Origin: an uncultured Clostridia bacterium
GTDB taxonomy: Bacteria; Bacillota; Clostridia; UMGS1883
Reading direction: 5' to 3'
Length of the DNA: 64,000 bases
Assembly (NCBI GenBank): GCA_947626145.1
Contig: CANQRB010000001.1
Span: 186,001 to 250,000 of the forward strand
Both the position numbers and the translations under genes were made by a program. A model generated the notes under the pieces. The model ran no database searches and was not told the DNA's origin. It saw only the letters and a program-made list of their open reading frames with translations. Shown here piece by piece: positions 1-12,873 of this stretch (positions within the stretch are counted from its first letter, which is position 1; every line of letters starts with the position of its first letter).

Positions 1-40
1 CTATATTGGAAAAAAATCATAGTCTAATTTTGCACAAACT

Positions 41-532
41 TTACACTACCCCGCCATGCAGTTTCCGCAGTTTTTGCCAAATCACGGCGAAAAGCAGTGC
101 CACAAGGGCTCCGGTCAGGGCACCGAGGGTGTCGATGCACACGTCGCGAAGCTGACAGGTCCGCCCGGGAACAAAGTATTGATGGATCTCATCGGTAACG
201 GCATAGGCCATTGAAAAGACCACGGTCATTAGCAGGGCGCGTTCCTTACGGTACTGGCGGACAAGGTGCATCAGCCAAAAGCCCAAAAAGGCGTAAATGC
301 AGAAATGAGCGCATTTCCGCACAATAAACATCACCGATTCAACCAGCCCGTCCTGAGCGGCCAAGCTCATGCGTCTGAAACCCGGAAACAGACCGAAAAC
401 AAAGCGTATAAATGAGCCGCTGGTGTCATTGGAGGCCGTGGCATCCTGAGCGGAAAACATGAAGATCATCACGGCCGAAGCAAGCACAAATACCCAAAGT
501 ACGGTTTTTAAAGCTGTCCTTTTACTCATCAC
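41..532 (-). CDS. VanZ-like family membrane protein
   Basis: This 163-residue integral membrane protein has the VanZ pattern: a Cys-Ala-His-Phe 'RKCAHF' turn in the middle, followed by a helix and then 'TDEIHQYFVPGR' and 'DVCIDTLGALTGAL' near the C-terminus. About four hydrophobic segments can be seen, at residues 8-25, 70-90, 100-115 and 133-150. VanZ-family proteins sit in the plasma membrane; some contribute to teicoplanin resistance, but the biochemical role of most is unknown. The start used is a GTG that overlaps the TGA of the upstream GDSL gene by 4 bases; an ATG follows directly and may be the true start. The overlap suggests translational coupling with the GDSL hydrolase gene. Confidence 0.85.
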   Translation of the reverse strand: MMSKRTALKTVLWVFVLASAVMIFMFSAQDATASNDTSGSFIRFVFGLFPGFRRMSLAAQDGLVESVMFIVRKCAHFCIYAFLGFWLMHLVRQYRKERALLMTVVFSMAYAVTDEIHQYFVPGRTCQLRDVCIDTLGALTGALVALLFAVIWQKLRKLHGGVV

Positions 533-1593
533 AATTCGCCTTTCAACAGCAGTCCGCCGAGAACCTTTGCCACCGCTTCGCCGGCAAGGCCGTTGGGATG
601 GGCGTCCCCGGGATCACTCATATACTCGGGCCGCACACGGCCCGGCGTCTCAGCCTCCAGGATAGAGGCTATATCAAATACCTTCGGTGATATTTCTCCG
701 GCCAGCACGGCGCGGTTCACCTTCTGCCGCTGTTCCTCCTGCCAGGGATCCATATTGAAGGGCGGTATGGTGCATTGTATTATGTCAACCGCCGGTTTAT
801 TCCCACGAAGGAGCCGAGCCGTTGTCCTGAGACTTTCAATTATGTTCTCTCCGGTGCGTCCGCCGCTCTTTATGTCGTTGACGCCGAAGCATATTATTAC
901 CTTATCTCCGCTTTTCGCCAAATTGAGGAACAGTCCGTTTGCCGCGGCGTCGTAGGCTCTCGACCAGCCCATGCCCAGATTTATGACATTTACGGAAAGA
1001 GGCAGAGCAAGGGCGGTACGGTGAGCCCAGGCCTCATATTTATCCGTGGCCGTGCGGGTACCCTGCGTTATGCTGTCGCCGAAAAACACCAGCGTCCGGT
1101 CAAATCCGGCGTCACAGCCGATAAAGTTGGGCCGCAGCACGTTAAGTGTACGCAGACCGTTTTTGTAACCCGAGGAGGCGCTTTCGTCAGTGGATGGCAG
1201 CTCAAGCTCCTCCTCCGCCCTCACGCGGAGCCTCACGGACAGCCATGCGTTATCGGGTATGTTTACATAGATCCAGTCCGAGCTATATCCGTCGGTAACC
1301 GTCACCGACGGATCACCGCCAAAGGTCAGCGGTATTTCGACCTCCGGATTGCGGCTCACCATGGCGCCATAACCCACAGAAGCGGAAAGCACGGTAAATT
1401 TTCCGCCGGGCTTTTCCCTGACGGAGCAGCCGGTGGAGTATATTTTGTTGAAATACCGTATCATCACCTTCATCGGCCCACGCCGCCGAGGCAGGTACCA
1501 GCTCAGGAAGTCGGCCTCCTCCCCCGCCCTCATGGGTATAAAGTTGTTGTTGCCGGTGCCTGAAACGGTCAATGAGTACACGCCTTCAAGCAT
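529..1593 (-). CDS. SGNH/GDSL-type hydrolase
   Basis: This 354-residue protein carries the SGNH-hydrolase blocks in its second half: 'VFFGDSITQG' (block I with the nucleophile Ser), 'NLGMGWSRA' (Gly block), 'CFGVNDI' (Asn block) and 'DAHPNGLAGEAVAKVL' (Asp-x-x-His block). The first 150 residues or so form a beta-rich domain, probably carbohydrate-binding or an accessory domain. Enzymes of this class remove acyl groups from lipids or polysaccharides; the substrate here is unknown. The start ATG at 1593 is preceded by a strong AAAGGAGG site. The open frame runs further upstream, but only through the tRNA-Leu gene and its terminator, so the longer start is rejected. No signal peptide is seen. 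The gene is coupled to the VanZ-like gene. Confidence 0.85.
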   Translation of the reverse strand: MLEGVYSLTVSGTGNNNFIPMRAGEEADFLSWYLPRRRGPMKVMIRYFNKIYSTGCSVREKPGGKFTVLSASVGYGAMVSRNPEVEIPLTFGGDPSVTVTDGYSSDWIYVNIPDNAWLSVRLRVRAEEELELPSTDESASSGYKNGLRTLNVLRPNFIGCDAGFDRTLVFFGDSITQGTRTATDKYEAWAHRTALALPLSVNVINLGMGWSRAYDAAANGLFLNLAKSGDKVIICFGVNDIKSGGRTGENIIESLRTTARLLRGNKPAVDIIQCTIPPFNMDPWQEEQRQKVNRAVLAGEISPKVFDIASILEAETPGRVRPEYMSDPGDAHPNGLAGEAVAKVLGGLLLKGEL

Positions 1594-1620
1594 AAAGACG
1601 CCTCCTTTACGCTGCCTTAT

Positions 1621-1661
1621 CTTCAAAATATGGGAACCGTAAAGGTTCCCATATTTTGAAG
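1621..1661 (-). terminator. Perfect 18-bp hairpin after tRNA-Leu
   Basis: An 18-bp perfect inverted repeat (left arm CTTCAAAATATGGGAACC, 5-nt loop) starts 5 bases past the tRNA CCA end and lies before the GDSL gene's ribosome site. It probably ends tRNA transcription or protects its 3' end. A clean U-tract outside the stem is absent, so partial read-through into the GDSL gene is possible. Confidence 0.6.
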
Positions 1662-1666
1662 CAGTA

Positions 1667-1754
1667 TGGTGCTCGGGACCGGGATCGAACCGGTACGGCT
1701 TTATGGGCCGGGGGATTTTAAGTCCCCTGCGTCTACCTGTTCCGCCACTCGAGC
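1667..1754 (-). tRNA. tRNA-Leu (anticodon UAA)
   Basis: A class II tRNA with a long variable arm. The anticodon loop reads CTTAAAA (UAA), the T loop reads TTCGATC within a 5-bp stem, the D-arm carries the usual GGTAGACGC, and the 3' CCA is encoded (1667-1669 on the plus strand as TGG). The acceptor stem GCTCGAG/CCCGAGC contains one A6-C67 mismatch. A consensus promoter lies just upstream. Confidence 0.95.
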
Positions 1755-1771
1755 ATACCCAGCCTGTTTCT

Positions 1772-1800
1772 ATTATAATAAAAAAAGCCTGTTTTGTCAA
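1772..1800 (-). promoter_or_regulatory. Sigma-A promoter for tRNA-Leu
   Basis: Exact TTGACA (1800-1795) and TATAAT (1777-1772) on the minus strand are separated by 17 bases, placing the start site a few bases before the tRNA 5' end. Confidence 0.9.
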
Positions 1801-1819
1801 TACCCGCGAGGAAATTTCT

Positions 1820-1849
1820 TGCATAATTTAAGAACAGGCTTAATATACT
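1820..1849 (+). promoter_or_regulatory. Possible sigma-E-like promoter of spoIVA
   Basis: GCATAATT (1820-1827) and AATATACT (1842-1849) resemble the mother-cell sigma-E -35 and -10 elements with plausible spacing, about 70 bases upstream of spoIVA. The match is loose. The expectation that spoIVA is sigma-E controlled comes from Bacillus, not from this sequence. Confidence 0.3.
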
Positions 1850-1920
1850 TAGACAGAAGCGGACTGAAGAGAAAACCATTGAGCTTTGTTTATCATATTC
1901 GCGAAGGAGGGTGAAGCCTC

Positions 1921-3402
1921 ATGGCTTCTGCAAACAGTATTTACGCCGACATCGCCGAGCGCACCGGCGGCGACATCTACATCGGCGTGGTGGGCCCGGT
2001 GAGAACGGGCAAATCCACCTTTATCAAAAAATTCATGGACACCATAGTCATCCCCAACATTGACGACCAGCACCGGCGCGCCCGCACTCAGGATGAGCTG
2101 CCCCAGAGCGCGGCGGGCCGCACCATCATGACCACGGAGCCCAAATTTATCCCCAACGAGGCGGTCAGCATCGCCATAGACGAAAAGACGGATTTCCGGG
2201 TTCGGCTCATCGACTGTGTGGGCTATATCGTGGATTCCGCCAAGGGCCATACCGACGAGGACGGCCCCCGCATGGTGAGCACTCCATGGTTCGAGGAGGA
2301 CATCGAGTTCGACAAGGCGGCGGAGATAGGCACCAGAAAGGTGATTTGCGACCACAGCACCATCGGCATTGTAATGACGACGGACGGCAGCATATGCGAC
2401 ATTCCCAGGCCTGACTATGTCCCCGCCGAGGAGCGTGTCATAAAGGAGCTGAAGGATATCGACAAGCCCTTCATTATTGTCCTCAACTCCGCACGGCCGG
2501 CCGCGCCTCAGACTCAGAAGCTGCGGCAGGAGCTTGAGGAAAAATACTCCACTCCCGTGGTGGCCGTATCCTGCCTTGACCTGAGCGGCGGGGACATTGA
2601 GGAAATAATCCGTGCCGTGCTTTATGAGTTCCCCCTCAACGAGCTGAGCGTCGACCTGCCCGGCTGGATAGACGCCCTGCCCATGGATCACTATCTGAAG
2701 AAGTCTGTTTTCACCGCCGTAAGGGAGACTCTTCTGCCACTGTACAAGCTGAGCCAGATAAAAGAAGCAGTAAAGCTTCTGTGCGCCAACGAGTACATAA
2801 AAACAGCCTCGGTCGAGCGCATCAGCCCCGACCTTGGCAGCGGTCTGATAAGCATAACGGCCAACGACGGACTGTTCTACCGTGTGATAAGCGAAACAAC
2901 GGGCATCGAGCTCAAGGACGACGAGGCCCTTATTGCCTTCATCACCGAAATGGCCAAGGTCAAAAAGAAGTACAGCAAACTCGAATACGCCCTCCATGAG
3001 GTTGAGCAGACGGGCTACGGCATAGTTTTCCCCTCTATTGAGGAACTGACTCTCAAGGAGCCGGAAATCATGAAGCAGGGCGGTCGGTTCGGTGTGCGGC
3101 TCAAGGCCAGCGCCCCCAGCATCCACCTTATAAAGGCACAGATAGAGACGGAGATAAACCCCATAGTAGGCAGCGAAAAGCAGAGCGAGGATCTTATAAA
3201 CTACCTCATGTCCGAGTTCGAGAGCGATCCAATAAAGATCTGGGGCAGTAACATCTTCGGCAAATCCCTGCACGAGCTGGTTAACGAGGGACTAAACACC
3301 AAGCTCAGCAAAATGCCGTCCGAGGCCAGAGCCAAGCTTCAGGAAACTCTTGAAAAAATCATCAACGAGGGCTCCGGCGGGCTTATCTGCATAATTCTAT
3401 AA
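1921..3402 (+). CDS. spoIVA: Stage IV sporulation protein A (spore coat morphogenetic ATPase)
   Basis: SpoIVA is the cytoskeletal ATPase that polymerises on the outer forespore membrane in the mother cell and forms the basement layer for the spore coat; it also supports cortex assembly. The protein is 493 residues, essentially the family length (492 in B. subtilis). The P-loop GPVRTGKS is at residues 25-32, followed by the TRAFAC-like segment 'RLIDCVGYIVD'. The C-terminus ends in hydrophobic 'GLICIIL', the end that docks to SpoVM at the membrane in the family. The ATG is preceded by AAGGAGGG with normal spacing. The gene is monocistronic, with a terminator directly downstream. Confidence 0.97.
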   Translation: MASANSIYADIAERTGGDIYIGVVGPVRTGKSTFIKKFMDTIVIPNIDDQHRRARTQDELPQSAAGRTIMTTEPKFIPNEAVSIAIDEKTDFRVRLIDCVGYIVDSAKGHTDEDGPRMVSTPWFEEDIEFDKAAEIGTRKVICDHSTIGIVMTTDGSICDIPRPDYVPAEERVIKELKDIDKPFIIVLNSARPAAPQTQKLRQELEEKYSTPVVAVSCLDLSGGDIEEIIRAVLYEFPLNELSVDLPGWIDALPMDHYLKKSVFTAVRETLLPLYKLSQIKEAVKLLCANEYIKTASVERISPDLGSGLISITANDGLFYRVISETTGIELKDDEALIAFITEMAKVKKKYSKLEYALHEVEQTGYGIVFPSIEELTLKEPEIMKQGGRFGVRLKASAPSIHLIKAQIETEINPIVGSEKQSEDLINYLMSEFESDPIKIWGSNIFGKSLHELVNEGLNTKLSKMPSEARAKLQETLEKIINEGSGGLICIIL

Positions 3403-3421
3403 AATGATTTTATAAACTTTT

Positions 3422-3455
3422 CCACCCGGAGCGAAGGCTCCGGGCGGTTTAATTT
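3422..3455 (+). terminator. Rho-independent terminator of spoIVA
   Basis: Perfect 8-bp stem CCCGGAGC/GCTCCGGG (3425-3432 and 3437-3444) with a GAAG tetraloop, extended by flanking CC/GG and followed by a T-rich stretch. Confidence 0.85.
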
Positions 3456-3469
3456 TGTGATAATATATA

Positions 3470-3498
3470 TTGACATTCCCGGACAAAAAAGGTATAAT
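3470..3498 (+). promoter_or_regulatory. Consensus sigma-A promoter of the methionine synthase gene
   Basis: TTGACA (3470-3475) and TATAAT (3493-3498) have a 17-base spacer. The leader to the ATG at 3544 is only about 40 bases, so there is no room for a SAM or cobalamin riboswitch. Confidence 0.9.
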
Positions 3499-3543
3499 TA
3501 TAAAAACCGATAAAAGCGCCGTCGCGGCGGAACGGAGGCAGCC

Positions 3544-5883
3544 ATGACTATATTCGAAAACAGAAGATACATATTTGACGGAGGCTTCGGCACCATGCTC
3601 CAGAAAAACGGTATGGAACCGGGAGCCGTTCCCGAGGAGCTGAACGTCACCGACCCGGAAATGATTCGCTCGATCCACCGGGCCTACCGTGAGGCCGGAG
3701 CAGAGATAATGACCACCAACACCTTCGGGGCCAATCCCATAAAACTGAAGAGCAAATATTCTCTTAAAGAAATAATCCGTTCAGCCGTGGAAAACGCCCG
3801 CAGCGCCGGTGGGCTCGTGGCCCTGGACATAGGCCCCACCGGCGCCCTGCTGAAGCCAGTGGGCGAGCTGGACTTCGAGGACGCATACGCCGCCTTTCAT
3901 GAGGTGGCAAGACTGGGGGCCGAGGCGGGAGCCGATTTAATCGTTATTGAAACCATGAGCGACACCCTTGAGGCCAAAGCCGCAATCCTTGCGGCAAAGG
4001 ACGCCTGCACTCTTCCGGTCTTTGCCACAATGACTTTTGACGAAAAGGGCAAATCCCTGACGGGAGCCGACCCTGAGTGCATGGCCGCAATATTTGAGGG
4101 CCTTGGAGCGGACGCGTTGGGCATAAACTGCGGCCTTGGCCCGGCCCTTATACTGCCTCTGACAGAAAGGCTGACGGCGGTGAGCTCCACTCCCCTGCTT
4201 ATTCAGGCCAACGCCGGCCTGCCTCAGGTGGTAAACGGAGAGACGGTCTATGACGTCGGGCCGGAGGAGTTCGGCATCTGGGCCGCAAAGCTGGCAAAAC
4301 TTGGAGTACAGTTCATCGGCGGCTGCTGCGGAACAACACCCGCTCACATAAAGGAAATTGTAAAAAGCACCGAAAACATTCCGTTCGCGCCGCCATCAAG
4401 GAAAAATCTTCGCGTCTGCGCCTCCTATTCCCACGCCCTCACCGTAGGCGATGCGCCGGTAATCATCGGCGAACGCATCAATCCAACCGGCAAGAAAAAA
4501 TTCCGCGAGGCCCTGAAAAATCGGGATTTTGACTATATATTGGGCGATGCGGCGGCTCAGGCGGCGGCCGGAGCCCAAGCCCTCGACGTGAATGTCGGTT
4601 CGCCCGACATCGACGAAACCGCCATGATGAGAGAAATCGTACCGCGGCTCCAGGCCGTCACCGATCTCCCGCTGCAGATCGACAGCTCCTCCCCCGCCGC
4701 CCTGGAAGCGGCCATGCGGGTGTATAACGGCAAGCCCATCGTCAACTCAGTTAACGGCAAAAAAGAGGTAATGGACGCGGTTTTCCCGCTGGTGAAGAAA
4801 TACGGCGGCATGGTGGTGGGGCTTACCCTTGACGAGGCCGGCATACCCGACACAGCCGAGGGGCGCTTCGCTATTGCCGAAAGGATAGTTAAGCGTGCGG
4901 CGGAGTACGGCATCGGCACCCACGATATAATAATCGACGCGCTGACAATGACGGTGGCCACCGACGATATGGCGGCGGAAAAAACCCTCGCCGCGCTGAA
5001 GATGATAAAGTCGCGTCTCGGCGTGGCTATGGTGCTGGGAGTCTCTAACATTTCATTCGGCCTGCCATGCCGTCCGGCGGTAAACGCCGCTTTTCTGGAC
5101 ATGGCGGTGAAGGCCGGGCTGGACTGTGCCATATACAACCCAATGTCCCCCCGGAGCAGTGACGATCCCGCCGCGCTAAAAATGCTGCGGGGCGAGGATC
5201 CCGGCTGCGAGGCCTATATTGCCGCCTGCGCCGCCGCCGAACAGTCAGCCGCACAGCAAACGTCGGAGCTCAGCCTTCGGCAGCTCATCGCCACCGGCCA
5301 GAAGGAACGCTCCTATGAGGCGGCGAAGGAAATGCTTAAAAAACTCCCGGCGCTCGAGCTGATAAACGGCCATATAATTCCCGCCCTGAACGCCGTGGGC
5401 GAAGGCTTTGAAAAAGGCAAACTGTTTCTGCCTCAGCTGATGAGCGGGGCCGACAGCGCAAAACGGGCCTTTGACGCCGTCCGTGAAGCGGCGGAAAACC
5501 GCGGCGCCGACGCCGGAACGATCGTGCTGGCCACGGTCAAGGGCGACATTCACGACATTGGCAAAAACATAGTAAAACTCCTGCTCCAAAATTACGGCTA
5601 CAATGTAATCGACTTGGGCCGGGACGTGGATATAGAGCTGATCCTCAGCACCCTGCGGGAAACCGGCGCTCCCCTTCTGGGCCTCAGCGCTCTGATGACC
5701 ACAACCGTAGTCAGCATGGAAAGAACCATAAAGGCCGTCCGTGACGCCGGATTTGACTGCAAAATAGTTGTGGGCGGAGCTGTGCTCACCGAGGGCTACG
5801 CCATGGAAATAGGGGCCGACTATTACGCCAAGGACGCGCTGGTGACGGTTTCGATAGCAAATAAACTGTTTGGGAGGGAATAA
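3544..5883 (+). CDS. metH: Cobalamin-dependent methionine synthase, short form (Hcy, pterin and B12 modules)
   Basis: The enzyme transfers the methyl group of 5-methyltetrahydrofolate to homocysteine through cobalamin. Residues 1-290 form the homocysteine-binding barrel with zinc-binding Cys in 'GINCGLGP' and 'IGGCCGTTP'. Residues 310-560 form the pterin-binding (DHPS-like) barrel starting at 'VIIGERINPTGKKKF'. Residues 570-779 hold the helical cap and B12-binding domain with the ligand motif 'GDIHDIGKN' near residue 667. At 779 residues it lacks the C-terminal AdoMet reactivation domain of the E. coli-type enzyme (about 1200 residues), as is usual in anaerobic Clostridia, so reductive reactivation must come from another protein. 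The ATG at 3544 follows GGAGG. It is co-transcribed with the flavoprotein gene that begins two bases after its stop. Confidence 0.93.
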   Translation: MTIFENRRYIFDGGFGTMLQKNGMEPGAVPEELNVTDPEMIRSIHRAYREAGAEIMTTNTFGANPIKLKSKYSLKEIIRSAVENARSAGGLVALDIGPTGALLKPVGELDFEDAYAAFHEVARLGAEAGADLIVIETMSDTLEAKAAILAAKDACTLPVFATMTFDEKGKSLTGADPECMAAIFEGLGADALGINCGLGPALILPLTERLTAVSSTPLLIQANAGLPQVVNGETVYDVGPEEFGIWAAKLAKLGVQFIGGCCGTTPAHIKEIVKSTENIPFAPPSRKNLRVCASYSHALTVGDAPVIIGERINPTGKKKFREALKNRDFDYILGDAAAQAAAGAQALDVNVGSPDIDETAMMREIVPRLQAVTDLPLQIDSSSPAALEAAMRVYNGKPIVNSVNGKKEVMDAVFPLVKKYGGMVVGLTLDEAGIPDTAEGRFAIAERIVKRAAEYGIGTHDIIIDALTMTVATDDMAAEKTLAALKMIKSRLGVAMVLGVSNISFGLPCRPAVNAAFLDMAVKAGLDCAIYNPMSPRSSDDPAALKMLRGEDPGCEAYIAACAAAEQSAAQQTSELSLRQLIATGQKERSYEAAKEMLKKLPALELINGHIIPALNAVGEGFEKGKLFLPQLMSGADSAKRAFDAVREAAENRGADAGTIVLATVKGDIHDIGKNIVKLLLQNYGYNVIDLGRDVDIELILSTLRETGAPLLGLSALMTTTVVSMERTIKAVRDAGFDCKIVVGGAVLTEGYAMEIGADYYAKDALVTVSIANKLFGRE

Positions 5884-5884
5884 T

Positions 5885-6340
5885 ATGAGAAGGAAGGACC
5901 GTGAACAGACCCGCGAGTTCGGGCTGGAGCTGATCGACCGCTGTGAATACGGGGTCATGGCCCTTATCGACAGCGAGGGCAAGCCTTACGCCGTGGCTCT
6001 CAATTTGGTACGGGACGGGGAAAAGCTCTATTTCCACTGCGCAATGGACGGGAAAAAGACCGGCAGTCTGCGGGAAAATCCGGAGGTGTGCATTTCCTTT
6101 ACCGGCGGCGTAAAGCCGGTGCCGGACAAGTTCACCACTTTGTACCGTTCGGCCATAGTACGGGGCCGTGCTACAGAGGTAACAGACACGAATGAAAAAA
6201 TCCACGGTTTGCGTTTGCTGTGCGAAAAGCTGGATGCCACGAACATGGCGGATTTTGACAACGCCTTAGAGCGCAGCCTCCACCGCACCGCCGTGTGGCG
6301 CATAGACATCGACGAGGTCACCGCAAAGGAAAAGAAATAA
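5885..6340 (+). CDS. Pyridoxamine 5'-phosphate oxidase family flavoprotein (NimA-like)
   Basis: A 151-residue split-barrel flavin-binding protein. The N-terminal 'EYGVMALIDSEGKPYAVALN' and the later 'LYFHCAMDGKK' are typical of the PNPOx-like/NimA group of FMN- or F420-type oxidoreductases, some of which reduce nitroimidazoles. The physiological substrate is unknown. The ATG at 5885 lies one base after the methionine synthase stop and uses the GGGAGG at the end of that gene as ribosome site, implying coupling. A bidirectional hairpin follows. Confidence 0.85.
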   Translation: MRRKDREQTREFGLELIDRCEYGVMALIDSEGKPYAVALNLVRDGEKLYFHCAMDGKKTGSLRENPEVCISFTGGVKPVPDKFTTLYRSAIVRGRATEVTDTNEKIHGLRLLCEKLDATNMADFDNALERSLHRTAVWRIDIDEVTAKEKK

Positions 6341-6348
6341 ACACAGTC

Positions 6349-6382
6349 AAAAAATCATCCGGGAGCTACCGGATGATTTTTT
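6349..6382. terminator. Bidirectional terminator between convergent genes
   Basis: 14-bp perfect stem AAAAAATCATCCGG/CCGGATGATTTTTT with a 6-nt loop. A tract and T tract on the two sides let it serve both the rightward flavoprotein gene and the leftward small-peptide gene. Confidence 0.9.
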
Positions 6383-6395
6383 GATAGAAAATTTA

Positions 6396-6557
6396 TTACT
6401 TGCCGGCCCAGTATTTCTGCTTGTCGGCGTCGCTGCGGTCTGTGTCCTTGATGGAGTAAACTATTTTAGTGTTGGTCTGCACTAAATTGGAGGACATAAC
6501 GGCCTCCACAGCGGCCAACTGAACAGCCTTTACTTCCGGGGCGTTGAACTTTTTCAT
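6396..6557 (-). CDS. Small 53-residue protein of unknown function
   Basis: A short open frame with a strong ribosome site (AGGAGG, 8-9 bases before ATG) begins 18 bases after the stop of the LamG protein gene and ends just before a good terminator. The peptide opens with 'MKKFNAPEVKAVQLAAVEAV' and ends 'DKQKYWAGK'. It contains no Cys and no signal peptide. Short proteins with a similar charged 'MKK-(Y/F)-x-x-P-E-V' opening are, from memory, common beside secreted proteins and peptide loci in Clostridia; I do not know a function. It could be a leader-like precursor peptide, but no maturation enzyme is visible nearby. Codon structure and ribosome site make a real gene likely. Confidence 0.7.
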   Translation of the reverse strand: MKKFNAPEVKAVQLAAVEAVMSSNLVQTNTKIVYSIKDTDRSDADKQKYWAGK

Positions 6558-6575
6558 TTTGAACATCCTCCTTTT

Positions 6576-9500
6576 TTACAGCTCGGGAATGAAATCCTGA
6601 GCGGCGTCCGCGTCTTCGGCGTCTGCGTCGGCCATCTCGGTGGGTACGAACTCAAGGTTCACTGCCTCGAGGGCCAGCATAACGGCCTCAGCACTGGCGG
6701 CGTCATTTATCGTGATAGTATCTTCGGTCACCGCAATGGCGTCGGCGGGAGTGGTGATATTGCCATCCTCGCCCTTAACAGCGTAGGTCATGGCGTCCTT
6801 GGTGAACCTCAGACCGAGATCGAAAGCGTCCTTATTAAGGGTAATTGTCTTGTCGGTCTTTGTCATTACCTTTTTAGCCTCGTCGGTGAGGTTGCCATTT
6901 TCGTCAACGAAGATACCGCCGTTGGCGAGAATGGAATTGACAGCGGCGAGCTGCTCGGCGTTTATCTGACCTTCGATGGTCGCGTCGGCGATAGCTTTCT
7001 CAAGAGCGGTCATAACAAGGCTGTAGATGGCCTCCTTTTCGGTGGGCTCACCCTTGAATACCGCGCCCTCAAATTCAACCGTGGGAGTGGCAACATAAGT
7101 GAGATTGGTGTTGGGAGTGGTAAGTCCGATACCGCTGTTCTCACCGGGCGTAAAGGTTCCGCTGAAGGTTTTGCCGTCAGAGGAAACAACAGTCGCACCG
7201 TAAGCGGCGTTTTCAACGGCAGTTACGTCACTTGCGATATAGTCGATAGTGAACGCGCCCTCATTCCAGCCAAGAGCGGCTTTAAGAGCGGGCACCTCGG
7301 GAGGAGTAACTACCTTCTCGTCAACAATGTAGGGCTTGTATGCGCTGTTGGCGTAAGAAGCACCGGCCACAGCAATGTCATGCTCCTCAAAATCTATTGC
7401 AAGTACTATTTTATCACCTGTACACTCATGGAGGTCGACGGTATAGCTGTTAAACTTATTCGCGGAGGGATGGATACCGGTTGCTCCGCCTATCCTTACC
7501 GCGCCGAGCTTTTCCTTCCAATTATCTAAGGTGTATTCGTCAGCAACCAACTGTCCGTCTACAACCTTTGCGGGATCGATTCTGTATACATTTACTTTGT
7601 ATACTTCGCTACTGGCCGTGCTGTTTACACGAGGATAATACACATTGAGCGCGGCGCTTGCAAGCACCTTGCCGCTCTCAACAGTGGGCGCATCAAATGT
7701 CATGAATACAGTATTTCTGCCATTGGCTCCCCATCCAAGAGGTCCGCAGGCATAGCCGTCGCTGTCCTCGACACCGAGTTTGTTGGACAAGAACATGTAA
7801 CCGAATACATCGGCGGTTTTAACGCTTATGTAGCTGAAGGTGACAGTCTTTGCAGCATCGTCCACCACGGGCGCGCCGCTTACTGCATAATTGTTTATCG
7901 CGGGGACATCGGCCTTTTCAGCGGCAGCTTTGTTAAGGAACTTCTTTTTATAGCTCTTGAAGCCCTCGATATCCTTGCCGTCACACTGAGCCTTAACGGT
8001 GTACTCGGTATAGCCCTCTGTCCACGAAATGCGGAAATTAGAGACATCTATAGCATTTTCCGTAGAGCCGTTGTCCAAAACAACAAGCGTGTCAAGCTGA
8101 TAATCTTCAAGTTGACTTCTATAAGTTATTCCTTGTTTATTTTGAAGTACCTTACCTGTCTCGTCCCTTATTTCTACATCATAGGTCTGCGCGGCAGTGT
8201 CGGTTGAAATAAGGAAATGATAGGTATTGCCTGCGGTTACAGTTTTTTCAATCACAGTTGTTCCATTAGAGCCGTCCCATGTTCGTACATTCAAGCCCTC
8301 GCTGTTGACCTGAATCGATACCGCGTCGCCTGTGCCGCCAAAAATCGGATAATTATCATTGCCATTTAATGTCTTGCTTCCCTTCTGGGCAATAGTGATA
8401 GTGCTGTTGCCAAGAGCATTGAACCTTGCGTCAAACTCAAATACAACCTTGCCCTTTACGGGATTGAACATTTTAGCAGACGCGCCATTTCCCGCCTGTC
8501 CTTTTGTTGCCGTTATAGTTTCATTCGCCAAGGCATCATCGTCACACTGGAGCTTTGTAACGCTCACTTCCGGAGTTCCTAAAGAAGCATATTCGCTGTC
8601 AAGTGTGCCGGTAATTGTTACAGGTTCACCGTAATTGGCGGTTTCAAGAAGCGTCTTGTCCCATGTCACATCAACATCAAGGGTAACGCCGTCCTGGTCA
8701 GTCCCAAGAGTCACCTTTTGAGGAAGGGGCGCCTCGTTACCTTCGATATATGTTACACCGTCAACAGGCTTTATATCCGTGGCTTTGGCCTTAGTCTTTT
8801 CATACTCTACTTCAGCGGTATCTCCCTTTGCGGTTCTATTGGTTTCACCTACCAGATTATAGGGAATACCGTCATAAATAACGGTCTCCGGCACGGTGAA
8901 GGACGCTTCATCGGAGAAATATTCAACGATCTGCTTCTGAAGCTCCACCTCACCGGCCATATAGCTTACCGTCAAGGTCTTTTTAGCGCTGAGCAGTGCC
9001 TTTACCTCTTCGGCAGTCAGAGCCTTGTTATAAATACGCACATCGGCCATGCCGCCTTGAAGCTCGGGGTTATCGCCGTTATTCCACACATTATGTCCGA
9101 GGAGAATTGTTGCCCCTGTAAGAGTAGACGGAGCTGTGCTTGTGTCAAATTCCTGATCTGTTGCGCTATCCTTACCACGGGTTCCGTTGGTAAGCGGCTC
9201 ACCGTTTATGTAAACGGTGGCCTTCTTTTGATTCGTAAGGTCAAATGTCGCTGTGACAAGGGCCCACTTATCCTTTGTGGCGTCTAAATTATTATACTCA
9301 TAATAAATGCGGTTTCTGTCAGGCCTGTACTGAACAGTCATAAGCTTGCCTGTCATCTGGAGCAGCATTCTGTTTGTGGTACCGTTAGCGATATCCCAAA
9401 ACGCGACAGCCTTGCCGTCCATATTGTACTTGGAATCCTGCTTTACCCACATGGAAACGGTATAGTCACCCGTAAGCTGTTTAACCAGCTCATTGGGCAA

Positions 9501-9761
9501 ACTGATATATGCAGTTCCGCTGTATGTGCCATTTTTTGATATCCCACCGGGGAAAGCAGCAAATCCGTTGGGGTCAAATACGAGGCCGGTTCCGTTGACA
9601 GTTCCGTTATTTGTCCCAGCTGAGTCATTTGCGTTGCCGTTAAGCGTGTAGTGTGCGATAAGCCCATCCTCCGCCGCGGCGGCCGGCAGTCCGAAGGCCG
9701 GGATCACTGTCAGGGTCATGGTCAGCGCAATAGCTAATGACAGCACTTTTTTGATGTTCAT
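6576..9761 (-). CDS. Large secreted LamG-domain, multi-domain surface protein
   Basis: A 1061-residue exported protein. Residues 1-30 form a classic signal peptide ending 'LPAAAAEDG'. Residues about 32-262 form a LamG/concanavalin-like lectin domain ('GLIAHYTLNGNANDSAG' ... 'GGMADVRIYNKALTAEEV'). Residues about 320-405 are a bacterial Ig-like domain. A second jelly-roll-like segment (about 410-585) and further beta-rich modules follow. The C-terminus is acidic ('ADADAEDADAAQDF'). No catalytic glycosidase motif, LPxTG signal, SLH domain or dockerin is seen, so it is probably a secreted binding or scaffold protein; the ligand is unknown. It has its own consensus promoter, and the 53-residue gene follows in the same transcript. 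The ATG is preceded by AAAGGAGG. Confidence 0.8.
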   Translation of the reverse strand: MNIKKVLSLAIALTMTLTVIPAFGLPAAAAEDGLIAHYTLNGNANDSAGTNNGTVNGTGLVFDPNGFAAFPGGISKNGTYSGTAYISLPNELVKQLTGDYTVSMWVKQDSKYNMDGKAVAFWDIANGTTNRMLLQMTGKLMTVQYRPDRNRIYYEYNNLDATKDKWALVTATFDLTNQKKATVYINGEPLTNGTRGKDSATDQEFDTSTAPSTLTGATILLGHNVWNNGDNPELQGGMADVRIYNKALTAEEVKALLSAKKTLTVSYMAGEVELQKQIVEYFSDEASFTVPETVIYDGIPYNLVGETNRTAKGDTAEVEYEKTKAKATDIKPVDGVTYIEGNEAPLPQKVTLGTDQDGVTLDVDVTWDKTLLETANYGEPVTITGTLDSEYASLGTPEVSVTKLQCDDDALANETITATKGQAGNGASAKMFNPVKGKVVFEFDARFNALGNSTITIAQKGSKTLNGNDNYPIFGGTGDAVSIQVNSEGLNVRTWDGSNGTTVIEKTVTAGNTYHFLISTDTAAQTYDVEIRDETGKVLQNKQGITYRSQLEDYQLDTLVVLDNGSTENAIDVSNFRISWTEGYTEYTVKAQCDGKDIEGFKSYKKKFLNKAAAEKADVPAINNYAVSGAPVVDDAAKTVTFSYISVKTADVFGYMFLSNKLGVEDSDGYACGPLGWGANGRNTVFMTFDAPTVESGKVLASAALNVYYPRVNSTASSEVYKVNVYRIDPAKVVDGQLVADEYTLDNWKEKLGAVRIGGATGIHPSANKFNSYTVDLHECTGDKIVLAIDFEEHDIAVAGASYANSAYKPYIVDEKVVTPPEVPALKAALGWNEGAFTIDYIASDVTAVENAAYGATVVSSDGKTFSGTFTPGENSGIGLTTPNTNLTYVATPTVEFEGAVFKGEPTEKEAIYSLVMTALEKAIADATIEGQINAEQLAAVNSILANGGIFVDENGNLTDEAKKVMTKTDKTITLNKDAFDLGLRFTKDAMTYAVKGEDGNITTPADAIAVTEDTITINDAASAEAVMLALEAVNLEFVPTEMADADAEDADAAQDFIPEL

Positions 9762-9798
9762 ATTTTTCCTCCTTTAAACTTATCTATGGTATGTTGTA

Positions 9799-9827
9799 AT
9801 TATACAATATCCCCTTCTGTATGTCAA
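9799..9827 (-). promoter_or_regulatory. Consensus sigma-A promoter of the LamG gene
   Basis: On the minus strand TTGACA (9827-9822) and TATAAT (9804-9799) are separated by 17 bases, about 38 bases before the ATG. Confidence 0.9.
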
Positions 9828-9876
9828 TACAAATATATCTTGGGTAACAGTTTTTTTGTTATTCCGATCCCAAATT

Positions 9877-9927
9877 AAAAGCATCAACCAGGCGGCGCAA
9901 AAAATACCGCCTTGAATTGATGCTTTT
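9877..9927 (-). terminator. Terminator after the GH16 gene
   Basis: An 11-bp perfect outer stem (AAAAGCATCAA/TTGATGCTTTT) encloses an inner GC-rich AGGCGG/CCGCCT stem. It lies between the GH16-phosphatase gene and the LamG promoter. Confidence 0.75.
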
Positions 9928-9969
9928 AGATATGGATACTTTTTACCACCTGCGCCGTGGGTCAGGGCG

Positions 9970-12039
9970 TTATTTTTCCAAAAATTTATCCTGAAGTGCC
10001 TTCCTCTTCTCATCGGTCAGGCCCAGACAATCCCTTAAATAGTTGTCTATGGAACCGTATTCTTTCTTAACGCTTTCCATGGCGAGCACAAGATATTTTT
10101 CTTCCACTCCCTTTGTGGCCGCTATAAGCTCGGCAGTCTCCTCGGCGTTAAGGCCGTTTGCCTCGGCAATGGCCTTAATTTCCCCGATATCCTTCACATT
10201 GGACTCGTTTGTAAGGAGATAATCCCGCATCACCATTTTTTCATCCGCTCCGAGGGCAAAGAGCAGCAGCGCGGCCGCTATCCCCGTCCTGTCCTTGCCG
10301 TATTCGCCGTGGAATATTATCGTATCGCCTTCTTCCGCGGAGAGAAGGATGTCAAAAAATTTTGCATAAGCGGACTGAACGTGGTCAACAAGCAGCATCC
10401 GTTCGTAACGTTCGGTTATAATACCGTTGCGGGCATAAGCCAGCGCCCTTTTCATATTGTCCCCGTCCTCGGGTTCTATTTCTCCGAGCTTAATAGACGT
10501 ATCCATAGTAAATATATTTCCGCCATATATCGGAACGGAGAAATACTGTGCGCCGGGTATTTCCACATCGGGATCGTCCGACGACTCTTTTTCAGAGCGG
10601 AGATCTATTATATACTTAAGCCCGTACTGTTCAGCAAGAGTTTTTGTGTCCCTCGTGCTGAGCCATGAGAGCATGGCCCCGCGAAAAAGCACATTTTCTT
10701 TGACCCTCCGTCCTTCCGCGCAGGGATAGCCGCCGAGCTGACGGACGTTGTCGGCGGACTTGATGTTTATCGCCTGAGTCTTTGCCGTGTAGTTTTCGGG
10801 TCGGGCCGCGGAATTTCTAATCGTTACCGCCTGAGCTTCATTGTCCCACGATACATCAAGATTGAAGCTTTCCGCTACAAAGCGAATGGGCAGCATGGTT
10901 TTTCCGCCAATAATGACTGGAGCGGCGTCAAGCGCCTGAGCCTTATCATTGAGATAGGCCGTTGTGCTTCCTATTTGAAGCTTAACCGTGTCCTCTCCAC
11001 GGCTCAGGGTCACGGTCCGGGTGTCGCCGTCCCAAAGAACCGTTCCGCCTATTTCCTCAACTACGGCACGTACCGGCAGAAAGGTCCTGCCGTCCACAAT
11101 GACAGGCGTTGTGCCCTGGGAGTCCACGGGTTTATCCACTCCGTTCACCGTCATAACCGGATTGTCGATCTGAAGCCTGATGTCAACAGCTCTCTCGGCC
11201 CTGACATCAGCATTGTTGTGCGGATTAGTGTCCCATACGCGCACATAATCCACTTCCATCTGTGCGGGCAGCTCCGCTATCGCCTCTTCCGTTCCTCCTC
11301 CGGCCCAGTAAGAGGCCTCCATCGACAGGATTATAGTCCCGTCCAGCGGACAGATGCCGCCGCCCTGCGAGCGCCATGTTTCCTTTCCGTCCACATAAAA
11401 GATATAATCGGTCATGGTACGCCAAAGGCCGAAGGTGTGGAACTTGCCGTCGTAAATGTCCAAATTGGAATGAGTTCGATCATCTTTTTTTGTATTTGAT
11501 CCGTAGCCGTCCCAATGAACGGCGTGATTGCAGTAGCCGCCGTCCCCGCCGATGCTTTCTATGATATCAAGCTCTATGCCGTCCTCGCTGCTGTTGTCCT
11601 CCGCAAGGACATCGCCCACCATCATCCAAAAGGCGCCCCAAATTCCGCGTGCGGTAGGAAAACGGATTGACGCTTCGTAGTATCCGTATCCGTTAAAGCT
11701 GCTGCCGGTCGAATATACCGCTCCGGACAGAACGCTGTTTTTTTCCTCGTCCCATTTTGCGCCCAGGATCAAGCATCCGTTTCCGTCGAGATACGACATT
11801 GAATTGCTCCAGTAATCTATGCCGTCGGAGCGGGGCATCTCAGGGCAACGCTGCCACTTGCTGTAATCGAGATCGTCTCCGTCAAAATTATCCTCAAACA
11901 AAACCGTCGCCGCCGCGGCCTGTACTTCGGGCTCATTTTGAGCCTCCTCAGCTCCGCAGCCTGTAACCATAGTACCGAACACGATAACAACGCTCAATAT
12001 AAAACAAATCGTTTTTTTGCTCCAGCCCCTAAACGACAT
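9970..12039 (-). CDS. Lipoprotein: GH16 glucanase + copper-amine-oxidase-like stalk + phosphatase-like domain with missing Cys
   Basis: A 689-residue exported lipoprotein with a lipobox ending at Cys28 ('MVTGC'). Residues 45-272 are a family 16 glycoside hydrolase with an intact catalytic signature E156-L-D158-I-I-E161, predicting endo-action on beta-1,3/1,4-glucans or related galactans. Residues 290-410 form two repeats of the copper amine oxidase N-terminal-like stalk domain ('FLPVRAVVEEIGGTVLWD', 'MLPIRFVAESFNLDVSWD'). Residues 425-689 match the tyrosine phosphatase family with the HCxxGKDRTG loop, but here the loop reads H577-G-E-Y-G-K-D-R-T-G: the nucleophile Cys is replaced by Gly578. 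The phosphatase part is therefore predicted inactive as a phosphatase and may bind a ligand instead. The ATG follows GGAGG. Confidence 0.88.
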   Translation of the reverse strand: MSFRGWSKKTICFILSVVIVFGTMVTGCGAEEAQNEPEVQAAAATVLFEDNFDGDDLDYSKWQRCPEMPRSDGIDYWSNSMSYLDGNGCLILGAKWDEEKNSVLSGAVYSTGSSFNGYGYYEASIRFPTARGIWGAFWMMVGDVLAEDNSSEDGIELDIIESIGGDGGYCNHAVHWDGYGSNTKKDDRTHSNLDIYDGKFHTFGLWRTMTDYIFYVDGKETWRSQGGGICPLDGTIILSMEASYWAGGGTEEAIAELPAQMEVDYVRVWDTNPHNNADVRAERAVDIRLQIDNPVMTVNGVDKPVDSQGTTPVIVDGRTFLPVRAVVEEIGGTVLWDGDTRTVTLSRGEDTVKLQIGSTTAYLNDKAQALDAAPVIIGGKTMLPIRFVAESFNLDVSWDNEAQAVTIRNSAARPENYTAKTQAINIKSADNVRQLGGYPCAEGRRVKENVLFRGAMLSWLSTRDTKTLAEQYGLKYIIDLRSEKESSDDPDVEIPGAQYFSVPIYGGNIFTMDTSIKLGEIEPEDGDNMKRALAYARNGIITERYERMLLVDHVQSAYAKFFDILLSAEEGDTIIFHGEYGKDRTGIAAALLLFALGADEKMVMRDYLLTNESNVKDIGEIKAIAEANGLNAEETAELIAATKGVEEKYLVLAMESVKKEYGSIDNYLRDCLGLTDEKRKALQDKFLEK

Positions 12040-12112
12040 TACAATACCTCCATATTTGTGACAACATTAACTATACCGAGCTGCGATATTTCACATTACA
12101 ACCCAATTTGGT

Positions 12113-12141
12113 ATTATAACACGGAATTGAAATTTTGTCTA
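12113..12141 (-). promoter_or_regulatory. Sigma-A promoter of the GH16 lipoprotein gene
   Basis: TAGACA (12141-12136) and TATAAT (12118-12113) on the minus strand have a 17-base spacer, giving a leader of about 70 bases. Confidence 0.75.
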
Positions 12142-12240
12142 TCCCAAAACCAAAGAATTTACAAAAAAATAAGGTAAATTCAAAACAGGCCGTGGAAGGC
12201 ACCCAAGTGAACGGGCAAAATCTAATGCTGTATTAACGTA

Positions 12241-12268
12241 GAAAATTCGCTCTTACGAGCGAATTTTC
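12241..12268 (-). terminator. Terminator overlapping the 3' end of the S-component-like gene
   Basis: 12-bp perfect stem GAAAATTCGCTC/GAGCGAATTTTC with a 4-nt loop. The upstream arm lies inside the last codons of the gene ending at 12253 and the loop contains its stop codon. Confidence 0.7.
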
Positions 12269-12873
12269 GTGTTTTTAAACGGAGAGCCCCAAGTCGTGGC
12301 GCTTATATGAGTCACATTTTTCATACTTTCCGGCAAAAGCATATAAACAACGGGAATGACTATACACATCACCGCTGTGTCAACCAGCTTCAGCGCTCCG
12401 GCCGAAACGGCGTAAGCAAAGAAGTTTGGCACGCCGGCCGAAATCATTTTTCCGTAGACCATAAGCTCCCATCCGCTGCTTGGAAGACTGTTGCGCCAGA
12501 TAGATATTACGGCTGACAAAACGGCCGACACCGTCACATAGCTCAAGGCCGCCAGCGGAAGCCGCTTCCATGATATTTTTCCGTCTTTTCTCAGCATAAT
12601 TCCGAAAATCAAGGCACACGACGCCGTTATGGCGTAGTAAATTATGGTGTCGCTCATATAGACCGCGCTTGACTCAAAAAGGTTGGTGGCATATCCGATA
12701 ATAAGTCCCGCCGCGGGCTCAAGCGTTACCGCGGCGACCGCTGTACCCACGGTGTCAAGCCACATAGGCAGCTTAAGTATGTGAGCGATCCAATAAAGGC
12801 CAATATTCAGGCCGAGACCGATGAGCATGACGACTGCGTATTTTATTATCATTTTCTTCTTGCTGTCATTCAT
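12253..12873 (-). CDS. Integral membrane protein resembling ECF-transporter S components
   Basis: About 206 residues with five to six hydrophobic segments. The segment 'LDTVGTAVAAVTLEPAAGLI' followed by 'GYATNL' resembles the glycine/alanine-rich second helix of ECF-type vitamin S components and of the related membrane sensor modules. No substrate can be predicted, and no ECF A/T genes are nearby. It starts at an ATG that overlaps the end of the K+ channel gene by 8 bases and is last in the leftward cluster. The terminator hairpin reaches into its final codons. A longer upstream start exists but would overlap the channel gene more and adds only a charged stretch. Confidence 0.6.
   Translation of the reverse strand: MNDSKKKMIIKYAVVMLIGLGLNIGLYWIAHILKLPMWLDTVGTAVAAVTLEPAAGLIIGYATNLFESSAVYMSDTIIYYAITASCALIFGIMLRKDGKISWKRLPLAALSYVTVSAVLSAVISIWRNSLPSSGWELMVYGKMISAGVPNFFAYAVSAGALKLVDTAVMCIVIPVVYMLLPESMKNVTHISATTWGSPFKNTKIRS

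Follow-up and report, generated by a model that had tools for sequence, protein, structure and literature searches.

Introduction

The closest described relatives of the domain reported here are the atypical lipid phosphatases (ALPs) of family PF13350, among them MptpB/PtpB of M. tuberculosis, Lmo1800 of Listeria and Pho16B, some of which are secreted. The known substrates of this family are phosphoinositides, phosphoprotein and phytate, the loop Cys is required, the loop Asp is important for catalysis and the loop Lys for substrate binding (PMC3091653, PMC6409689). A 2010 study describes ALPs as a phosphatase domain alone (PMC3091653). ALP sequences that lack the Cys, two from Burkholderia phytofirmans and one from M. 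paratuberculosis, are called probably inactive there and set aside, in a section that mentions no glycoside hydrolase fused to them (PMC3091653). Cys-less bacterial members of PF13350 have thus already been mentioned, without being studied further there.

In eukaryotes, Gly exactly replaces the catalytic Cys of STYX (PMC8269279), and this phosphatase-dead protein competes with an active phosphatase, DUSP4 (PMC8269279, PMC10211241). Human STYX (PDB 2r0b) shares the Gly and the general PTP fold with the domain described below, but is an intracellular DUSP of another subfamily and carries no glycoside hydrolase. MK-STYX (STYXL1), in which Ser stands in place of Cys as in one relative of our protein, is likewise a eukaryotic DUSP-type protein. 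To our knowledge, pseudophosphatases have been studied almost wholly in eukaryotes and have rarely been noticed in bacteria. A search of open-licence papers found no study on a bacterial PTP-type pseudophosphatase or on a GH16-phosphatase fusion. Bacterial GH16 beta-1,3-glucanases and laminarinases carry the same ExDxxE GH16 domain as our protein, and their entries name no phosphatase domain.

Here we analysed a stretch of 64,000 nucleotides from an uncultured Clostridia bacterium (the window; its genome is designated G000), in which an ALP-type domain without Cys is fused to a GH16 and a Cu_amine_oxidN1 domain. The domain shares the fold, the DxR motif and the GKDRTG half-loop with the ALPs, whereas the first half of the loop reads HGEY instead of HCxx.

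Results

A GH16 fusion protein with Gly at the nucleophile position

The fusion gene and its features are as follows.

9970..12039, minus strand: whole fusion gene, encoding a signal peptide, GH16, Cu_amine_oxidN1 and PF13350 in 689 aa (open reading frame and Pfam)
11956..12039, minus strand: signal peptide, with VTGC at residues 25-28, which we take to be lipobox-like following the usual lipobox rule (sequence)
11242..11727, minus strand: GH16 domain, residues 105-266, with E156, D158 and E161 (Pfam PF00722)
10819..11115, minus strand: Cu_amine_oxidN1 domain, residues 309-407 (Pfam PF07833, 122 bits)
9976..10770, minus strand: Y_phosphatase3 domain, residues 424-688 (Pfam PF13350, 196 bits; AF2 model)
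10282..10311, minus strand: phosphate-binding loop HGEYGKDRTG, residues 577-586 (sequence)
10306..10308, minus strand: GGC, Gly578, replacing the nucleophile Cys codon (sequence; TGC or TGT in Cys-bearing relatives, AGC in the relative G007)
12113..12141, minus strand: promoter-like TAGACA-17-TATAAT upstream of the gene (11/12, a consensus match only)

A preliminary description of this stretch had reported a GGC codon at 10306-10308, the loop H-G-E-Y-G-K-D-R-T-G and an intact GH16 site. All three were found again: the codon lies on the minus strand and specifies residue 578 of the open reading frame 9970-12039, the loop reads as given from H577 to G586, and E156, D158 and E161 stand at those numbers. 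The Cu_amine_oxidN1 domain is a further part of the protein that had been absent from that description. In Pfam, Glyco_hydro_16 was matched with 53 bits (cut-off 22) and Y_phosphatase3 with 196.2 bits (cut-off 22.2), the latter over positions 1-240 of the 240 in the PF13350 model; in NCBIfam no family scored above its cut-off. The GH16 catalytic motif ExDxxE is present, as it is in each of the four full-length fusions in the alignment, and the closest solved structures of this domain are beta-1,3-glucanases. A GGAGG sits 5' of the ATG. The VTGC is not clearly conserved among the other fusions.

Upstream of the gene, at 12241-12268, lies a perfect palindrome with 12-base arms, present in one copy in the window. 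Roughly 60 bases around it match dozens of places in the related genomes G007, G001 and G006, and the stretch is possibly a member of a dispersed repeat or terminator family. On the other side, at 6576-9761 on the minus strand, a 1061-aa LamG-type secreted protein is encoded, with a perfect TTGACA-17-TATAAT at 9827-9799. The region of its C-terminal end (6395-6658) is found again on several contigs of G007, and the last 250 residues of the protein align with a secreted G006 protein (L143:72-2846; 29% over 269 columns, E 2e-11), which adjoins a broken copy of the fusion gene. This C-terminal region is perhaps a shared surface module.

The predicted structure is that of a PtpB-type phosphatase

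An AF2 model of residues 417-689 was obtained with a pLDDT of 96 and a pTM of 0.93. Foldseek matched it to the C. difficile PTP 8dhi (E 3e-16) and to PtpB (E about 1e-12), and VIA gave Z 26.9 to the C. difficile enzyme (8dhi/8dhj) and about 24 (24.0) to M. tuberculosis PtpB (2oz5/1ywf). In both searches these two stood far above all other fold matches, the next being plant and yeast PFA-DSP/Siw14 proteins (Z about 13); human STYX 2r0b scored Z 10.6 (VIA). At E values of no more than 0.001, a phmmer search of PDB sequences gave just two hits, both ALP-type, and a literature search for the C. difficile PTP structures found no paper. Judged by the model, the domain is an intact PtpB-type phosphatase fold, and this predicted PTP fold minus an essential catalytic residue agrees with the structural definition of a pseudophosphatase. 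The window domain departs from the ALP P-loop pattern HCXXGKDR[TA]G, with Gly for Cys in HGEYGKDRTG. By this sequence pattern it is therefore not classed as an ALP enzyme, although it carries an ALP fold domain.

Could the domain still be an enzyme, through another nucleophile or a water activated by Asp583? The acid-type Asp and the Lys and Arg remain, and the relative G007 has a Ser at the Cys position. Gly, however, supplies no nucleophile, no candidate residue has been gained in the loops of both Cys-less proteins, and Cys-less members were judged probably inactive in the earlier study (PMC3091653). We regard residual catalysis as very improbable.

The lack of Cys is rare and is shared with one relative

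We examined 391 genomes of the class, 68 of which have a PF13350 match. All listed PF13350 places except two on G235:C7 were taken into a loop alignment, in which the nucleophile column is occupied in 102 rows, and 100 of these have Cys; with the G006 gene, entered twice, counted once, the figure is 99 of 101 distinct domains. The sole exceptions are the window gene (Gly, GGC) and the G007 gene (Ser, AGC). In alignment A1, comprising 65 domains (13 of them added from a further search, with short or split matches left out), Cys was found in 63. A family-wide drift toward Cys loss was rejected in view of the 99 in 101. Glu at the position after the nucleophile column (Glu579) occurs in the window domain only, in 1 of the 102 rows.

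The three-domain fusion was found in five genomes: G000, three others of the same genus (G007, G001 and G006) and one of another order (G371). A search for further fusion genes in the sampled genomes gave none beyond these, and a scan of genome contigs gave one locus, on G007 contig CANRJP010000002.1 (uncultured Clostridia MAG Lapin-021). The G007 protein, 68% identical to that of the window, has the loop HSAQGKDRAG. The three more distant fusion genes retain the Cys: G001 (52% identical) reads HCSAGKDRAG (TGC), G371 (56%) HCSAGKDRTG, and G006 HCSAGK (TGC), after which the reading frame changes. In-frame stops occur in other parts of the G006 gene as well, so it is broken. The frame-broken copy (L006; L143 about 3500-5440) still has its Cys codon. 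A search of 95 genomes of the order to which G371 belongs gave one full-length match, the G371 gene itself (L065/L210); the other matches in that search cover the phosphatase domain only.

Sequencing error, which the preliminary description had itself raised as a possible refutation, was rejected, as was assembly error. Although the species is known from a single genome, its nearest relative, an independent MAG, likewise has no Cys at this position, and the residues flanking the lost Cys differ too (GEY, SAQ and CSA). The probability of such an error seems to us very low.

Both G000 and G007 have one other PF13350 protein each, a single-domain protein with a lipobox-like start and the loop HCSKGKDRTG. 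The two are identical at 297 of 314 residues (dS 0.37). To judge from these sequences, a live enzyme of the family is probably exported by the same cell. Competition or substrate sharing between the fusion protein and this Cys-bearing homologue is therefore possible, as for STYX and DUSP4.

Selection on the Cys-less domain

Conserved columns were defined as those with at least 80% conservation among the 63 other domains, giving 26. The window domain deviates at two, the Cys and one Leu-to-Ile change common to stand-alone homologues; the G007 domain deviates at three, and the 63 others at 0 to 6. To estimate omega, we fitted a GY94-type codon model of our own making to 10 PF13350 domains. For the two Cys-less tips jointly it was 0.064, compared with 0.082 elsewhere, and omega 1 was rejected (2dlnL 187). 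For the G000 tip alone it was 0.09 (2dlnL 9.4 against 1 and 2.25 against 0.2), and for the G007 tip alone 0.04 (2dlnL 24.6 against 1). In a tree of four fusion genes, the G000 tip gave 0.16, and omega 1 cost a 2dlnL of only 2.0, a weak resolution due to synonymous sites near saturation (dS about 2.6-3); the G000 GH16 domain in this tree had a higher omega of 0.23 (2dlnL 6.7). Omega for the Cys-less pair came to 0.06-0.07.

Protein distance within the pair was 0.298 for the PTP domain and 0.314 for GH16. The ratio of Cys-less to Cys-bearing tip lengths was 0.52 (0.38-0.64) for the PTP domain; GH16 and the stalk gave 0.66 and 0.47, respectively. The internal branch was longer for the PTP domain (0.28, 0.18-0.40) than for GH16 (0.11, 0.04-0.20), but this branch is undirected and the two intervals overlap slightly; the difference gives a hint, and only that, that function changed along the stem common to the pair and that constraint then returned. 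Relaxed selection, which the preliminary description had named as another observation that would speak against it, was thus not seen in the Cys-less pair, with two deviations in 26 columns, an omega of 0.064 and no excess PTP divergence. Should Ser and Gly be the outcome of two separate and recent changes, these tests would mostly reflect the time before the loss.

These data also bear on the idea that the domain is in early decay, its phosphatase function no longer needed and its persistence owed to selection on GH16 and the stalk. The frame-broken relative in G006, the patchy distribution of the gene, a separate Cys-bearing homologue of the same genome that could cover the function and the poorly resolved G000 tip in the four-gene tree would all fit. 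On the other hand, every other conserved column save the one Leu-to-Ile is kept, the pair omega is low, the PTP domain has not diverged faster than GH16 between the two Cys-less proteins, and the promoter-like and ribosome-binding sequences are intact. Decay is in our view unlikely. A purely structural part, stabilising the protein or mediating dimerisation with no phosphate bound, would agree with the intact fold and with a Glu579 unique in the sample. It would leave no need for H577, K582, D583, R584 and the DxR motif, all of which are kept in both Cys-less proteins, and we consider this explanation rather improbable.

History of the fusion gene

The two Cys-less genes are sisters with a local support of 0.99. 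With a stem of 0.18, tips of 0.22 and 0.19 and a total tree length of 39, a single loss on the stem is favoured roughly 180 to 1 if losses are rare everywhere, a figure that assumes equal loss rates, which is perhaps untrue. AGC to GGC (Ser to Gly) is a single transition. Under a homogeneous codon model giving Cys no special weight, the ancestral codon of the pair was estimated as Ser with about 0.43, Cys with 0.35 and Gly with 0.2, that is, non-Cys with a posterior of about 0.65. One ancestral loss of Cys for the pair is likely but not proven. A Gly fixed in a clade, which the preliminary description had proposed to look for, was not found, the two-member Cys-less clade consisting of one Gly and one Ser.

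Between the fusion genes of G000 and G007, dS reaches about 3.0, and for the PTP domain alone it is 2.6. Other genes common to the two genomes have a median of 0.58 (0.34-1.51) in 21 comparisons, some overlapping, from which frames with omega of at least 0.35 were dropped as likely non-coding. Window positions 1-6339 match G007:C44 and those from 12275 onward match G007:C8, and the G000 fusion lies at neither; the G007 fusion adjoins a flippase-like gene, and the corresponding gene of G000 is not accompanied by a fusion. That the two fusions are simple vertical orthologues was rejected, with dS far above that of shared genes and different genomic sites. We also observed that synteny with G007 breaks at both ends of 6340-12274, the stretch that holds the LamG gene and the fusion. 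The G371 gene groups with that of G001 (support 82), and its occurrence in another order points to transfer between orders. Given the high dS, the different sites and the G371/G001 grouping, the sequences identify the fusion gene as accessory, acquired by transfer or left by differential loss of old duplicates. It appears dispensable, since its distribution is patchy (PF13350 matches are absent from four of the eight genomes of the genus) and the G006 copy is frame-broken.

Discussion

We favour, as the probable explanation, that the PF13350 domain is a pseudophosphatase comparable to STYX, retained on a surface beta-glucanase as a module that binds phosphate without hydrolysing it. The protein would be secreted or displayed at the surface, with a GH16 enzyme of beta-glucanase type carried on a Cu_amine_oxidN1 stalk and the pseudophosphatase domain at the C terminus. 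This domain keeps the predicted fold, the phosphate-gripping loop with its backbone turn, Lys582, Asp583 and Arg584, and also the DxR motif known from ALPs. Without Cys the phospho-enzyme intermediate should not form. Phosphatase activity is therefore predicted from the sequence to be absent, and a phosphorylated ligand to be bound still: with the Cys gone while Lys582, Asp583 and Arg584 remain, phosphate may be gripped without turnover. Substrate-trapping Cys-to-Ser mutants behave in this way, binding phosphate with no turnover. Glu579, a loop residue unique in the sample, could weaken phosphate binding. Of the original proposal of a pseudophosphatase, the lost nucleophile, the otherwise preserved active site and fold and the unrelaxed selection stand.

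Candidate ligands are phosphoinositol, inositol phosphate, a phospholipid head group or a phosphoglycan. By analogy, the substrates of the family point to inositol phosphates at least as much as to phospho-glycans or phospho-sugars. By binding its ligand the domain may hold the glucanase at its target, through docking or tethering, or it may compete with the separate active-type homologue. More tentatively, and with some doubt, the ALP domain without Cys could represent a new kind of extracellular phosphate-recognition module, non-hydrolysing and directed at phosphorylated inositol or glycan, that guides the glucanase and arose by one ancestral loss, from Cys through Ser to Gly, before the two lineages split.

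The natural series of Cys-bearing, Ser, Gly and frame-broken forms, together with a homologue in the same cell that has its Cys, offers a testable path from phosphatase to binding domain. It also hints that carbohydrate-active enzymes may carry a phosphate-binding accessory module that has so far gone unrecognised.
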